From Berkelbacteria bacterium GW2011_GWA2_35_9 (GTDB lineage: Bacteria > Patescibacteriota > UBA1384 > GWA2-35-9): a stretch of 45,810 nt of DNA. The stretch is taken from NCBI GenBank assembly GCA_000991185.1, contig LBRB01000005.1:1-45810 (forward strand), given 5' to 3'. Shown piece by piece: positions 11,476-18,206 of the stretch. The translations under genes were made by a program, and so were the position numbers. The notes below the pieces were generated by a model. It was given only the letters and a program-made list of their open reading frames with translations. It was not told where the DNA came from and did not search any database. Position 1 is the stretch's first letter. The number at the start of each line of letters is the position of its first letter.

Positions 11476-12834
11476 TTATAGATATATAAACATTGCTATG
11501 ACTGCAATCAACATAATCGCAAATGTTAACCAACCTAATACTTTTGAGATTGGCTTGTTAGTATATTTTCCCATAACATCTTTTCTCGAACTAATTAAAA
11601 CGATCATCGCAATCAACGGCACCGCCACAATGCCGTTTAATACTGCCGAATAAAACAACCCCTTGATCGGGTCAATGCCGATAAAATTGATCCCTAAACC
11701 ACACAATGTCGAAATAATAATTATGCCATAAAACCCACTCGCTTCTTTAAACTTATGAAACAAACCCTCTTTCCAACCAAATGCCTCGCTCAAAGCGTAG
11801 GCTGCCGATCCAGCTAATATTGGGATTCCCAATAACCCTGCTGCAATAATTCCAATCATAAAAAACAGACCTGCCATATCGCCGACTAACGGCTGTAAAG
11901 CTAAGGCGGCATCTTGAGCTGATGAAATATTATTAATTCCATTTTTATTCAAAACTGTTGCACAAGTTACTACAATCGAAAAAGCAATTAATTGCGATAG
12001 AACCATCCCTAAAACTGTATCAACCCGCATCTTTTTTAACATTTTAGGATGAACATATTTACTACTAGCATCATCGTTAAGTGCTTTTTCTTCAACTTCT
12101 TCAGACGCTTGCCAGAAAAAAAGATAAGGTGAGATTGTTGTCCCCAAAAAAGCTACTGTCGTCATAATATATTCACCATTAAATTGCCAATTGCTATAGG
12201 TAAATAATGACTTGCCTATGTCTGTCCAGTTTTGAGGCACAGCAAAAAGAGTTAACAAATAAGTTAATAAAAATATTGTCAACCATTTCAAAATATTGGC
12301 ATAGATACGATAGGATATAAAAACTTCAAGAAAAATAATAATTAGTGTAGTGATGATTGCCCAAAAACTGATTTTACCACCCAATATTAAACTTAATGTG
12401 GCTGACATAGCTGAAATATCGGCTCCAATATTGAAAATATTAGCGCCAACTAAAACGAAAACAACTAAAAAGAGAAGATACTTTGAATAATGTTTCTTAA
12501 TATTTCCAGCCAAACCATGACCAGTTACAATTCCAATTCGAGCACAAATTTCTTGAATTGCGATCATCAAAGGAATCTGAATTGGCATCAACCAGTTCAA
12601 TCCCAAACCATACTTTGCTCCCGTAATCGAGTAAGTTCCAATTCCGCTTGGATCATCATCTGAAAAACCAGTAATCACTCCTGGTCCAACGACTTTTGAT
12701 GCTTTTTTTACATTGTCTGAAATTTTTTTCTGATCTTTTTTAATTTCATCTGAAATTTCCCCCAAATGGACGCTCGAAGCTTTTTCAAACTCTTCAATAA
12801 AATCTTCAGTTTTTTCAATTGTTTTCTTTTTCAA
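11476..12834 (-). CDS. Divergent Nramp-family divalent metal transporter
   Basis: Multi-TM; 'ITGFSDDDPSGIGTYSITGAKYG', 'IQEICARIGIVTGHGLA', 'GTTISPYLFFWQASEEVEE'. TTG start overlaps the rsmA stop. Confidence 0.85.
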   Translation of the reverse strand: MKKKTIEKTEDFIEEFEKASSVHLGEISDEIKKDQKKISDNVKKASKVVGPGVITGFSDDDPSGIGTYSITGAKYGLGLNWLMPIQIPLMIAIQEICARIGIVTGHGLAGNIKKHYSKYLLFLVVFVLVGANIFNIGADISAMSATLSLILGGKISFWAIITTLIIIFLEVFISYRIYANILKWLTIFLLTYLLTLFAVPQNWTDIGKSLFTYSNWQFNGEYIMTTVAFLGTTISPYLFFWQASEEVEEKALNDDASSKYVHPKMLKKMRVDTVLGMVLSQLIAFSIVVTCATVLNKNGINNISSAQDAALALQPLVGDMAGLFFMIGIIAAGLLGIPILAGSAAYALSEAFGWKEGLFHKFKEASGFYGIIIISTLCGLGINFIGIDPIKGLFYSAVLNGIVAVPLIAMIVLISSRKDVMGKYTNKPISKVLGWLTFAIMLIAVIAMFIYL

Positions 12835-13628
12835 TTGTCCAAATTATTTTTTAGAATCGTATACAAATTTTGCCAATCTAAAACCGTTAGATCTTCAGCT
12901 CGATACCCCTCTTTGATCTGACTTTTCTCCATTATATCAAATAAATCCGTTTTATCGAAATTCAAAATCGGAAAGAGGGAATTGATCAGTTTTCGTCTTT
13001 TTTGGGAAAAACCAGCTTTAATTAAACGCATCATTCCCACCTCAAGTGGAGTAATATTATTTTTTTTGCTTAATTTAATGACCGCCGAATCAACTTGAGG
13101 AATTGGTTGAAAATTTTCTTTTGAAACCTCAAATAATATTTCTATTGCGTAATAATACTGCAAAAAAACGGACAAAATCCCACGATTTTTTTCACCCGCT
13201 TTTGAAGCTAATCTTTCAGCCACTTCTTTTTGAACCATCAAAACCGCCATTGTTGGTTTTTCAATTTCACCGGTTACAAAATATTTATTAATTATTGGCG
13301 AAGTAACTGCATAGGGTAAGTTGGAAATTAGCTTATAATCATTTTTAGTAAATCTTGCTAGATCAGTTGAATTAAATTCTAATGCATCTCGATTGACCAC
13401 TTTAATATTTTTGCGATTTTTATAAACTTTTTTAAGTTTTTCCGCTATCCCAAAATCTTTTTCCAAGGCTAAAATGTCAATCGGTTTTTCAATCAATAAA
13501 TCCGTCAAAGCGCCTCTACCCGGACCAATCTCAATTATCTTATCACCAGTTTGCGATTCAATTGCTTCAACAATTTGTTGAGCAATAATTTGGTTAGTTA
13601 AAAAATTTTGACTGAGTTTTGTTTTCAT
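12831..13628 (-). CDS. rsmA: 16S rRNA dimethyladenosine transferase RsmA/KsgA
   Basis: 'LSQNFLTNQIIAQQIV', 'IEIGPGRGALTDLLI', 'ISNLPYAVTSPII'. Confidence 0.92.
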   Translation of the reverse strand: MKTKLSQNFLTNQIIAQQIVEAIESQTGDKIIEIGPGRGALTDLLIEKPIDILALEKDFGIAEKLKKVYKNRKNIKVVNRDALEFNSTDLARFTKNDYKLISNLPYAVTSPIINKYFVTGEIEKPTMAVLMVQKEVAERLASKAGEKNRGILSVFLQYYYAIEILFEVSKENFQPIPQVDSAVIKLSKKNNITPLEVGMMRLIKAGFSQKRRKLINSLFPILNFDKTDLFDIMEKSQIKEGYRAEDLTVLDWQNLYTILKNNLDN

Positions 13629-13644
13629 AACTCAAATTATACTT

Positions 13645-13674
13645 TGGAAAACAAAGGAGTACAAGGGAGAACAA
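13645..13674 (+). repeat. Inverted repeat arm A flanking the four-helix-bundle gene
   Basis: TGGAAAACAAAGGAGTACAAGGGAGAACAA; 26/30 identical to the minus-strand arm at 14203-14174. Confidence 0.75.
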
Positions 13675-13679
13675 ATAAA

Positions 13680-14204
13680 TTAATATGGTAAATTCCCTAT
13701 TATTTTTCTTTTAATATTTTGTTTTCGTTTGAATATCAGATCTTCTTTCTGATCTCCGGAATTGATATATTTATTTTCCAAACCTTCAATTTGCCTCAAA
13801 AGCATCATTTTCTCACCCATTAACAATTTGATGGTTTTTGATATTTCATCTAATTCTTGCCCCTTTGTTTTCCTTAGTCTTCCTCTATATTCCCTTTCGA
13901 GCTCAAAATAATCCTCTAATAATTCTATTAGTGACGCTAAACTAAATTTCAAAAACTCAATGTAATTTTTCGTTTGGTTACGGCTCCAACCCTCTGAAAT
14001 ATTGGCAGTAATAGACCGTCCGCATAATTGCATTTGTTCTATTAACCGACGATCTCTATAAGAATCTAAATAACTCCGACAAAATTCCTTAGTCAATACT
14101 TCGATTTCTTTTCCTTGTTGAAAAGTCCTCAATGCTTTATACCCCAATGGATTGAATGTGTTACTTTGCCGCATTGCCCTCCTTTGTACTCCATTGTTTT
14201 CCAT
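13680..14204 (-). CDS. Four-helix bundle protein (S23/Avd-like)
   Basis: 'YKALRTFQQGKEIEVLTKEFC...RRLIEQMQLCGRSITANISEGWSRNQTKNYIEFLKFSLASLIELLEDYFE', characteristic of 23S IVS-type four-helix bundle proteins. Confidence 0.88.
   Translation of the reverse strand: MENNGVQRRAMRQSNTFNPLGYKALRTFQQGKEIEVLTKEFCRSYLDSYRDRRLIEQMQLCGRSITANISEGWSRNQTKNYIEFLKFSLASLIELLEDYFELEREYRGRLRKTKGQELDEISKTIKLLMGEKMMLLRQIEGLENKYINSGDQKEDLIFKRKQNIKRKIIGNLPY
14174..14203 (-). repeat. Inverted repeat arm B, overlaps the start codon of the four-helix-bundle gene
   Basis: Minus strand TGGAAAACAATGGAGTACAAAGGAGGGCAA. Confidence 0.75.
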
Positions 14205-14209
14205 CTTAT

Positions 14210-15151
14210 TTATGGTTTAGTAAGCTTAACTTGTATTGTTCCAGCACCAAGCGGAGCTAGTTGGGAAAAAGCGTCGGGTGAAAGATCGATAATTGCATTA
14301 GACTGAATTCCGGGACCGACAATTTTAACCATCACCTGTTTACCATTTGAAATGTTAGTCACTAAAACCATAGTTCCACGAGGCAATGTGTTATGTGCCG
14401 CACTCATAGCTGGAGCACTATACCAAGTTGCTTTTCCAACTCCGTATACCACCTCTTTTGTACCGTAATAAATTATTTCCTCAACCGCCTCTTTGGTTGT
14501 CTCAGTTTTAATTAGTTTACGGCTTTTTTCAATTCCGTTTTCCCGAGTTACTTCATAAGTTAATTTTTTCTCGCCATTTTGTCCTTTTTGAGTGACTTTT
14601 TCTTCGCCTTTCCACATTTCCGGATCCTCTTTTCTGATAGTTGTGTAAGCAATTTTTTCTTTTTCATCAATATTTGTTTTTTCAACTCTAATTATCTCTA
14701 TCTCGAGACCAGCATCAATTTCATGTGCTAAAACCGGGTCGATTTTGTCTAACCCCCCAAGCTCAATCGATTTTTCCTTTAAAAATTCATCAACGTTTTT
14801 TGCAAAAGTTCGATGTTCTCTTGAATATTTTGCGTCAAGAACGGTAACATTTAAAGATCGTTTAATCGAAATTTTTGCGCCTAACCCCAATCCTAAATCA
14901 GGAAAAATCGTAATTTTATCTTGTGGATAAATTGTTAATTCATTTTTCTTAACAAAATCTTTAAAATTATTAATTGATGAATCGGCAAAGTAATTTTCGA
15001 TTTTGATCCGTGAATCTTCTTTATCTTGCTCAGCTTTGGCTACACTGACACCTAAAACTTGTCCTTCAGTATTACTCTCTTCCGGGACAATATTGATAAC
15101 AAATACAAATAACACCGGTAATAAAACTAATGCCAATAATTTTTTCAACAT
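14210..15151 (-). CDS. Secreted G5-domain plus RlpA-like/3D beta-barrel protein
   Basis: Signal/TM N-terminus; G5-like 'EKIAYTTIRKEDPEMWKGEEKVTQKGQNGEKKLTYEVTRENGIE'; C-terminal 'GKATWYSAPAMSAAHNTLPRGTMVLVTNISNGKQVMVKIVGPG'. Confidence 0.8.
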   Translation of the reverse strand: MLKKLLALVLLPVLFVFVINIVPEESNTEGQVLGVSVAKAEQDKEDSRIKIENYFADSSINNFKDFVKKNELTIYPQDKITIFPDLGLGLGAKISIKRSLNVTVLDAKYSREHRTFAKNVDEFLKEKSIELGGLDKIDPVLAHEIDAGLEIEIIRVEKTNIDEKEKIAYTTIRKEDPEMWKGEEKVTQKGQNGEKKLTYEVTRENGIEKSRKLIKTETTKEAVEEIIYYGTKEVVYGVGKATWYSAPAMSAAHNTLPRGTMVLVTNISNGKQVMVKIVGPGIQSNAIIDLSPDAFSQLAPLGAGTIQVKLTKP

Positions 15152-15170: not shown

Positions 15171-18100
15171 CTAGACAATAAATTCAACCGCTTCGCCGTC
15201 AAGATGTGAAATTTCATCAATAAATCGAGAACGGCTTTGATATTGAAACGATCCGAAAATAAAACGATTTCTGGAGTAGATTAAATAGAGACGGTTTTTG
15301 GCTCTTGTCATACCGACATAACACAACCGTCGCTCTTCTTCTAACTCACTTTCATCCTGTAAACTTCGACCATGAGGCAATAGCCCTTCTTCAAGACCGA
15401 CGACAAAAACCGTCTCGAATTCCAATCCCTTGGCTGAATGTAAAGTCATTAAAGTAACTGCTTGATCGTCGCTATTAATTTTGTCTGTGTCCTGGACCAA
15501 CGCCACTTTTTCTAAAAATCCATCAATTGTTTGGTATTGGCTAGCAACAGTTTTTAACTCTAAAATATTTTCCAAACGACTTTCATTTTCAATCGTTCCA
15601 TCGTCGAGCCATTTTTTATAACCGGTTTTATACATAATTAAATCAATTATTTCCGCCGGTGTTTTAAACTCGATTTTTTCTCGCATACCATCAATCATCT
15701 TCAAAAAATCTTGCACCTTGATTGGTATTTTTTCATTTTGAATTTTAAATTGTGATTTTGAATTTTGCATTTTGAATTTTGCATTCGAAAAACTTTCATA
15801 AGTTTTTCGTCCTATTCCTCTTGTCGGTGTATTGATTATTCTCTCCATTGACACGCTATCATTTGGGTTAACTAAATATCTTAAATAAGCAATTATATCT
15901 TTAACTTCTTTCCGTTCATAAAATCTAATTCCACCAATTAAACGGTACAAAATATTGGCTTTTATTAATCCTTCTTCCAAACTTCGGGATTGAGCATTAG
16001 TACGGTATAAAATTACAATCTCGTTCAGTTTTTGTTGCAAGGCTTTTATCTCACGAATTATAAAATCGATCTCTTCATTTTCGTCTTCAACTTCAAGCAC
16101 CGTAACTGGTAAGTTAGATTTTATTTCAGTCCACAATTTTTTTTCACTGCGAACTCGATTATTTTTTATCAATGCTTGAGCGCCGGTTAAAATATTTTCT
16201 GTCGAGCGATAATTTTGTTCAAGCTTAAAAGTTTTAGCATTCGGATAATCCCGCTCAAAATTCAAAATATTGCGAAAATTTGCGCCTCGCCACGAGTAAA
16301 TTGAATTATGCACTACCACTCCATTCGCTACATAATTATGTAACTTATCTATTTCTAAATCATAAACAAAACCTTGATAATCGATCATTTTAATATCAAC
16401 AATTTCGTCTTCAACAATATTATTATTTTCAATAATCGCAATTTTCATTGATTTTCGAAGATGAGACGCCGGTGTAAAATGCATTCTTTTGCCCTCAACC
16501 AAACAAGCAGTTTTAACTATATTAAAACCTCCTCTGATGCTCGATACTATTTTATTTAATATAATTTCGATTTCACCATAGTCAAGCCTCGTTATTTCCG
16601 TTCGCCAGTCGGATGATTTTCCTTTTCTCGTCATAATTCCTAATTTTTCAATATGTGATTTTAATTCAATATCGCTAGAATTGATTGATAAACGACTCAT
16701 CCCCCAAGGATTGAGAATGCTCTTTCTGCGATCATCAAACAATGCCAACCTTATATTTATCCTCTTGGTGCTATTTCGAATAGTAGCTTGTGGTGTCCAG
16801 TGTGAATATTCTTCAAATAAATATTGATCTGCCATTAATATCTTGGCTTTTTCAACAGTATCGATATTTTTATAAAGGTCGTCTATTTGTTTCTGATCCA
16901 TTATTGTACTTCTTCCTGCTGTAAAAAATATTACTGTCGGTATTCCATATTTAAACGCAAAAAATGATTCCCAATAAATTGCTTCCGCTGAACCATCACA
17001 AACCCTCAATATCCACATTTTATCTGCCTTTTCTTGATTGCCTCTGACTAGTAATCCATTTTGTGGTTTATGTTTTGTTATTCTTGTCCCTTTTGCAATA
17101 CCGACCCTAAATCCTTTATCCTTCCTAAACATTAAATAGACATAAAATATATTTGAATTAATCCCTAATCTTGAAAATACAATATGATTTGGAGTTAATA
17201 ATAATATTTTATTTTTTTTAGTTTTTACCCTAATTAATTTTCCTTTATATGAATATTTTTTTATTTTTTCAATTCCCTTAAAGACTGAACTACCATTGCC
17301 GGAAGCAACTCGAATATTATCTTTCAGTGTAATATTGCAAATATTCTTTAATCCTTTTTGAGTTATTAATTTTGTTAATGGATGGAAGCATTGAAAATCG
17401 TCTCCGACGACGCAGATGTTTTTTGTCTTTTGGCTTAGTAATTTTATTAGCTGATATTGCGGTTCGTTAGTATCTTGATACTCATCAACCATAATGTATT
17501 GAAACTGGTTTTGATAACGATCCAATATTTCCTGAGTGGTTTTAAAAAGCTTAACCACATTGATTAATAAATCATCAAAATCCATGGCGTTATTTTCAAC
17601 CAATCTTTTTTCATAGAGCGTATAAATTTCTGAAATAATTCGAGTAAAATAATCATTTGCAATTTTTTTATATCCAGCACTATCGATCAGTTCAGATTTT
17701 GCGGATGAAATTAATGCCGAGACTAAACCAGGATTAAATTTTTTTGGATCGTATTTGAGATCTTTGACAATTCTTTTAATTAACTGCTTTTGATCATCGC
17801 TATCATAAATTGAGAAATTATTGGTATATTTTAACAACGATTGATCGACTTCTCGACGCAAAATCTTAGCACAAATCGAATGAAAAGTCCCAGCCCATGG
17901 CAATTTATTATTTTGATATTTGGAATTTGAATTTTGTTTAATATTTGAAATTTGAATTTTGGAATTTGAGATGATTAAAAGATTTTCGATTCTTTTAATC
18001 ATCTCTTGCGCTGCTTTATTGGTAAAAGTGACCGCTAAAATCCGAAATGGGCTGACTTTTTTTTCTAAAATCAGATAGGCGAGTCGATGAGTCAAAGTTT

Positions 18101-18206
18101 TTGTTTTCCCACTTCCAGCACCAGCAAAAATCAAAACCGGTCCTTCAGTCTGAAGCACCGCATTTGCTTGTTCTTTATTAAGCCCGTCTAGTATTGAAAT
18201 CGACAT
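15171..18206 (-). CDS. pcrA: UvrD/PcrA-family DNA helicase containing an intein and two repeat-derived insertions
   Basis: 'AGAGSGKTKTLTHRLAYLI', 'VDEYQDTNEPQY', 'CVVGDDFQ | intein | SIYSWRGANFRNIL', 'LEQNYRSTENIL', 'VTLMTLHSAKGLEF', 'EEERRLCYVGMTRAK'. Confidence 0.94.
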   Translation of the reverse strand: MSISILDGLNKEQANAVLQTEGPVLIFAGAGSGKTKTLTHRLAYLILEKKVSPFRILAVTFTNKAAQEMIKRIENLLIISNSKIQISNIKQNSNSKYQNNKLPWAGTFHSICAKILRREVDQSLLKYTNNFSIYDSDDQKQLIKRIVKDLKYDPKKFNPGLVSALISSAKSELIDSAGYKKIANDYFTRIISEIYTLYEKRLVENNAMDFDDLLINVVKLFKTTQEILDRYQNQFQYIMVDEYQDTNEPQYQLIKLLSQKTKNICVVGDDFQCFHPLTKLITQKGLKNICNITLKDNIRVASGNGSSVFKGIEKIKKYSYKGKLIRVKTKKNKILLLTPNHIVFSRLGINSNIFYVYLMFRKDKGFRVGIAKGTRITKHKPQNGLLVRGNQEKADKMWILRVCDGSAEAIYWESFFAFKYGIPTVIFFTAGRSTIMDQKQIDDLYKNIDTVEKAKILMADQYLFEEYSHWTPQATIRNSTKRINIRLALFDDRRKSILNPWGMSRLSINSSDIELKSHIEKLGIMTRKGKSSDWRTEITRLDYGEIEIILNKIVSSIRGGFNIVKTACLVEGKRMHFTPASHLRKSMKIAIIENNNIVEDEIVDIKMIDYQGFVYDLEIDKLHNYVANGVVVHNSIYSWRGANFRNILNFERDYPNAKTFKLEQNYRSTENILTGAQALIKNNRVRSEKKLWTEIKSNLPVTVLEVEDENEEIDFIIREIKALQQKLNEIVILYRTNAQSRSLEEGLIKANILYRLIGGIRFYERKEVKDIIAYLRYLVNPNDSVSMERIINTPTRGIGRKTYESFSNAKFKMQNSKSQFKIQNEKIPIKVQDFLKMIDGMREKIEFKTPAEIIDLIMYKTGYKKWLDDGTIENESRLENILELKTVASQYQTIDGFLEKVALVQDTDKINSDDQAVTLMTLHSAKGLEFETVFVVGLEEGLLPHGRSLQDESELEEERRLCYVGMTRAKNRLYLIYSRNRFIFGSFQYQSRSRFIDEISHLDGEAVEFIV
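15735..15786. repeat. AT-rich interspersed repeat coding inside pcrA
   Basis: attttgaattttaaattgtgattttgaattttgcattttgaattttgcatt; encodes NAKFKMQNSKSQFKIQNE. Confidence 0.75.
16305..17390 (-). other. Intein (362 aa) in the PcrA helicase core
   Basis: Begins Cys after VVGDDFQ (CFHPLTKLITQ), block B 'LLLTPNHIVFS', block F 'VYDLEIDKLHNYVANGVVVHN', ends His-Asn followed by Ser (+1). Confidence 0.93.
17907..17971. repeat. AT-rich interspersed repeat coding inside pcrA
   Basis: attattttgatatttggaatttgaattttgtttaatatttgaaatttgaattttggaatttgag; encodes NSKIQISNIKQNSNSKYQNN. Confidence 0.75.

Follow-up and report, generated by a model that had tools for sequence, protein, structure and literature searches.

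An S23-family gene between inverted repeat arrays in a Berkelbacteria genome, probably a copy of a small, widespread mobile element

The S23 locus

The window, i.e. the whole 45,810-nt stretch analysed here, is contig C5 of the 619-kb, 86% complete genome of Berkelbacteria bacterium GW2011_GWA2_35_9. Between a gene for an RlpA-like protein and rsmA, it encodes an S23-family protein bracketed by a pair of inverted repeats, and the features of this locus are as follows.

13645..14203, minus strand: whole element, inverted arm - S23 gene - inverted arm (repeat search; unique pair in the window; a same-genus genome lacks it between the same neighbours)
14174..14203, minus strand: upstream (5') arm, TGGAAAACAA TGGAGTACAA AGGAGGGCAA on the gene strand, abutting the start codon and with a likely Shine-Dalgarno sequence inside
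13645..13674, plus strand: downstream (3') arm, the inverted copy, TGGAAAACAA AGGAGTACAA GGGAGAACAA on the plus strand (repeat search)
13680..14174, minus strand: S23 (23S rRNA-intervening-sequence-protein) gene, 164 aa (PF05635, TIGR02436, helical model; 174 aa if started from the in-frame ATG further upstream, at 14204)
14210..14212, minus strand: stop codon at the end of the G5/RlpA-like gene upstream, lying 6 nt outside the 5' arm and presumably close to where insertion took place
14210..15151, minus strand: upstream neighbour, gene for a G5 and double-psi-beta-barrel (RlpA-like) protein (open reading frame list, profile search)
12831..13628, minus strand: downstream neighbour, rsmA, rRNA adenine dimethylase (open reading frame list, profile search)

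An inverted-repeat search of the window paired the two 30-nt arms over 26 of 30 positions (87% complementary) across an intervening 499 nt. This was the only inverted pair in the window of at least 26/30 with an inner spacing of 30-740 nt, and five dinucleotide-shuffled windows contained none. Comparison of the 150-nt flanks of the gene in inverted orientation gave a z-score of 10.3 with a period of 10, and each arm was made up of three 10-nt units of the form NGGARNACAA. Both the arms and their units of about 10 nt had been described in the original prediction and were confirmed here, as was the assignment of the enclosed reading frame to the S23/Avd-like family.

The protein matched PF05635 with an E-value of 2.9e-12 (47.2 bits, relative to a curated cut-off of 33.8) and TIGR02436 with 47.5 bits (cut-off 24), whilst its AlphaFold model was all-helical (pLDDT 78), with the solved S23 proteins 2GSC (probability 1.00, TMt about 0.7) and 2RLD as best structural matches. 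In the profile searches (PF05635, TIGR02436) the S23 domain alone was found, with no transposase or nuclease signature. A profile scan of the genome contigs with the single window protein as query returned no relatives, and no S23 matches were found among the phages of INPHARED.

Homologues of the window protein begin M(R)NPLGYK in the alignment, hence the ATG at 14174-14172, giving 164 aa, is the most likely start. The original prediction had placed the start codon within one arm, at 14204, a position that the homologue alignment disfavours. The upstream arm, like the downstream arm, would therefore likely lie outside the reading frame; it would abut the start codon and carry the likely Shine-Dalgarno sequence, AAAGGAGG (14185-14178).

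An Rfam search of the window recovered one tRNA and no rRNA, and no known RNA family was found at the S23 locus. The Avd proteins of diversity-generating retroelements belong to the same four-helix pentamer family as S23; unlike Avd loci, however, the 86%-complete window genome was found to encode no reverse transcriptase (RVT_1), and a retroelement of this kind was rejected. The prediction that neither rRNA nor reverse transcriptase lies nearby was thus upheld.

Two further observations were made in this region. On the minus strand, at 13629-13670, the downstream arm contains TTGTAC, followed 17 nt on by TATAAT, directly before rsmA; judged by eye, this could be a promoter that the element provides for rsmA. 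Beyond the G5 gene, a UvrD/Rep-type helicase gene (15171-18206, minus strand) is split by an intein (Pfam Intein_splicing), and its coding sequence holds a heptamer-like low-complexity insert at 15740-15790, KFKMQNSKSQFKIQN. Other such inserts occur in metG and tsaD, and these coding-region inserts resemble the dispersed arrays found near S23 genes.

Comparison with a same-genus genome

An empty site between rsmA and the G5 gene, which the original prediction had proposed to look for, was found in a genome of the same genus, in which the two genes (84% and 82% DNA identity, respectively) are adjacent across a 52-nt spacer that contains neither the S23 gene nor the arms. Conserved synteny of rsmA, the four-helix gene and the G5 gene was not found. 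As the site is empty in the sister genome, we infer that the window copy was acquired by insertion; with two genomes compared, the absence may instead reflect loss in the sister genome. The G5-rsmA spacers of both genomes were too diverged to align, and no junction was readable at the window locus.

Two further S23 genes of the window genome, one beside tsaD and one on contig C4, are common to both genomes, which argues that S23 movement is not frequent. S23 presence across the two genomes is partly stable and partly variable. The tsaD-side S23 gene of the same-genus genome is apparently frameshifted near its start (L013, 1434-1570), whilst the copy in the window genome is intact, and in both genomes 9-nt units of a GTAGG type lie upstream of it. 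The genome to which the window belongs has dispersed arrays as well, almost all with a period of 7 in the DNA that was sampled, and no clear match of these to the units of resident S23 arms was established.

Inverted flanks of S23 genes

For each S23 gene, the upstream 150 nt were matched to the reverse-complemented downstream 150 nt, and the similarity was scored against dinucleotide shuffles. For the PF05635 genes with usable flanks from 55 genomes of the class, 72/105 exceeded z=3, relative to 8/239 control genes drawn from the same loci, and 53/105 exceeded z=5, relative to 5/239 (p=6e-27). At the latter threshold, an independent set of named genomes from many phyla gave 45/79 S23 loci and 6/197 controls (p=1e-23), and viral contigs gave 18/28 and 1/71 (p=9e-12). 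The original prediction had held that a lack of repeats around homologous genes would count against it, and these counts are the opposite of that. Similarity of the flanks in direct orientation was barely enriched at S23 genes, and about 30-45% of S23 genes had no clear inverted flanks. One exception was seen at L292 (1870-2470), where AAAAGCT/AAAAGCC arrays flank the S23 gene in direct, not inverted, orientation.

The arms were found to be arrays of mostly 7-nt units, with units of 8-11 nt in others, and the unit differed from gene to gene. Unit length was nonetheless shared with the nearest protein relative (at most 90% identical) in 99/120 cases, compared with 72.6±4.8 after shuffling, a correlation which supports the view that an S23 protein and its own arrays go together. 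Of 108 upstream arms, 97 had more G than C when read on the gene strand.

Insertion sites and solo arms

Pairs of near-identical sequences with and without an element were drawn from S23 genes on cyanobacterial plasmids, and two of these allowed exact ends to be read. In set A, plasmids of Trichormus and Scytonema carry the element whilst those of Nostoc carneum and Fremyella do not, with flanks that are 97% identical. The empty site AAAAAGTAATTAAC (longer reading AAAAAGTAATTAACAAATAA) corresponds to AAAAAGTAAT and GTAATTAAC on either side of the element, or in full AAAAAGTAAT / AAATCAGAATTCAG...S23...CTCCTGAGTTCTTCTTT / GTAATTAACAAATAA, with a 5-bp duplication, GTAAT. In set C, the empty Nostoc site TTCTAGGTTATGC is occupied as TTCTA / AATCAGGAGTCAG...S23...CTGACTTCTGGA / TTCTAGTTATGC, the 5-bp duplication being TTCTA. 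In each case the target includes, or overlaps with, the codon at which the upstream gene stops. In another Nostoc plasmid (L285), the next gene junction of the same operon is occupied by an element that is not the same and has arms of its own. Sets A and C were the only two sites with clean duplications, and both belong to relatives of the window element; sets B, D, E, F, G and H were too diverged, or changed at the junctions, for exact ends. A bulk search for duplications of at least 5 nt beside 115 elements with imprecise ends revealed no clear excess (26% vs 22%).

The elements of set A, set C and an Aulosira locus comprise four homologous copies at three unrelated sites, with a mean column identity of 83%, and their homology stops at the outer ends of the arms. 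A decayed copy has been left at the set A site in the plasmid of L280. Additional occupied and empty pairs, in which exact ends were not readable, demonstrate presence and absence; for instance, an element lies between cas10 and cmr3 in Picosynechococcus 7003 and is absent from 7002. S23 genes were observed within CRISPR-Cas operons of cyanobacterial plasmids whose relatives lack them (L275 3992-4348, L292 and L322), the junctions that hold them being cas10-cmr3 and, in two genera, cas6-cas4.

Of 98 elements with clear arms, 75 had a co-directional upstream reading frame whose end fell between -60 and +30 nt from the outer edge of their 5' arm, with a sharp peak at 0, relative to 33% of control genes at a comparable position. 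At L027 (1492-2619), a 376-aa open frame joins an S23 domain in frame with a pilin-like protein, apparently through insertion at the start of the pilin-like gene.

When the Trichormus element was used as a query against the Sphaerospermopsis genome that holds L203, one related and one decayed element were retrieved, together with about 58 scattered arm-only matches on the chromosome, the number of separate arrays being lower since one array can match both arms. These solo arms are short tandem heptamer repeats of a kind known from cyanobacteria.

Relation to known systems

In systems of REP sequences and RAYTs (REP-associated tyrosine transposases) a gene is flanked by inverted repeat sequences, of which many gene-less copies occur elsewhere in the genome; the protein family differs from S23, however, and REP sequences are palindromic, whereas S23 arms are arrays of 7-11-nt units. 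The ends of Tn7, Mu and the plant element En/Spm likewise carry arrays of short protein-binding motifs on both sides, but these elements encode a recognised transposase, whereas the S23 element does not.

A closer likeness is to the intervening sequences (IVSs) of 23S rRNA in Coxiella and Leptospira, in which, as in the window element, an S23-family reading frame lies between terminal inverted repeats with a total length of about 0.4-0.7 kb. The Coxiella IVS has an S23 reading frame, a 28-bp terminal inverted repeat that forms a stem, and two to three tandem heptamers (GACAGAT) directly upstream of the reading frame, and mobility of IVSs was proposed long ago (PMC4990558). Unlike an IVS, the window element lies between the G5 gene and rsmA and has 10-nt units, and RNA excision, by RNase III in the case of an IVS, is not implied; its relatives have inserted where protein-coding genes end, and 5-bp duplications were seen there. 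Because location in rRNA was tested and the window element lies elsewhere, it was classed as IVS-like and not as an IVS. The original prediction that the element was neither an IVS nor a diversity-generating retroelement thus stood with respect to location, but not anatomy, which is close to that of the 23S IVS, and the elements are probably related to IVSs. From the published IVS anatomy, we suggest that the 23S IVS is probably an element of this kind that resides in rRNA.

The STRR or heptamer repeats of cyanobacteria and Xanthomonas consist of the same type of short G-rich units as the S23 arms, but have been described as gene-less. In Xanthomonas, heptamer repeats of origin not known form many inverted pairs, with a bias of position towards stop codons and a matching strand bias (PMC4692102); S23 is not mentioned in that paper. 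Amongst open-access papers, no tie between S23 genes and short repeats was found beyond the Coxiella IVS paper.

Discussion

The window probably contains a copy of a small mobile element that is widespread and inserts as a unit, with a single S23 gene between inverted, gene-specific arrays. Relatives of the window element were observed to have inserted as complete units, to be flanked by 5-bp duplications in two places and to occur as the same element at unrelated sites, and solo arms were found dispersed. The suggestion in the original prediction of a small mobile cassette with its own ends gains support from the occupied and empty plasmid sites.

As envisaged here, the array-gene-inverted array unit, about 0.4-0.6 kb in size, would insert in one piece, with a preference for the stop codons of co-directional genes and with duplication of approximately 5 bp of the target. 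S23 proteins are described as homopentameric toroids in PMC4990558, which cites Lin et al. 2006, and such a pentameric ring may bind several units of each of its own arms and so pair the ends, analogous to the end-binding transposase subunits of Tn7 or Mu. Cutting and joining could be carried out by the S23 protein itself or, in trans, by an enzyme of the host. A bolder reading, which we consider possible though rather doubtful, is that S23 proteins themselves serve as recombinases, or bring the ends together, in a new pan-bacterial mobile class, with IVSs as its rRNA-resident members and scattered heptamer (STRR-type) arrays as its solo ends.

Several other explanations of these data were weighed. 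The unit could be a non-autonomous element that is moved in trans by an ordinary transposase, with S23 as cargo without a role in movement; no catalytic domain was recognised in the S23 protein, and DDE transposases usually duplicate about 5 bp. However, arm sequences vary from one element to another, also inside a single genome, no shared transposase-type end was seen, and unit length tracks the S23 protein, so that this explanation appears improbable. We regard as quite unlikely that the arrays are instead operator or mRNA sites at which the S23 protein regulates its own gene, an ordinary and often lost accessory gene, with the inverted arms forming a hairpin in the transcript. The position of the arms against the start codon, the Shine-Dalgarno sequence within them, the G-richness of upstream arms on the gene strand and the link between unit length and protein all fit autoregulation, which is also compatible with mobility, but it leaves unexplained the insertion with target duplication, the same element at unrelated sites, the solo arms and the placement on the stop codons of neighbours.

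Alternatively, the repeats themselves could be the driving force, with slippage making the arrays, an unrelated activity spreading them and S23 genes being passengers caught between two arrays. Heptamer arrays do occur away from S23 genes, and polymerase slippage has been put forward to explain why heptamers are abundant (PMC4692102, PMC4679880). Against this, inverted pairs were 10-20 times more frequent around S23 genes than around other genes, the arms matched at 0.85 in register relative to 0.70 off register (the in-register value being biased somewhat upward by the choice of best diagonals) and unit length followed protein relatedness, hence we consider a repeat-driven origin very improbable.

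S23 genes, annotated as ‘four helix bundle protein’, are very common in bacterial genomes, and their function is not known. The over-representation of heptamer repeats in many genomes lacks an accepted cause, and suspicions that 23S IVSs are mobile go back three decades, still without a mechanism. A single kind of element, in which protein and terminal arrays go together, would join these three questions, and would make each of them testable in a laboratory strain by means of a 0.4-kb construct.
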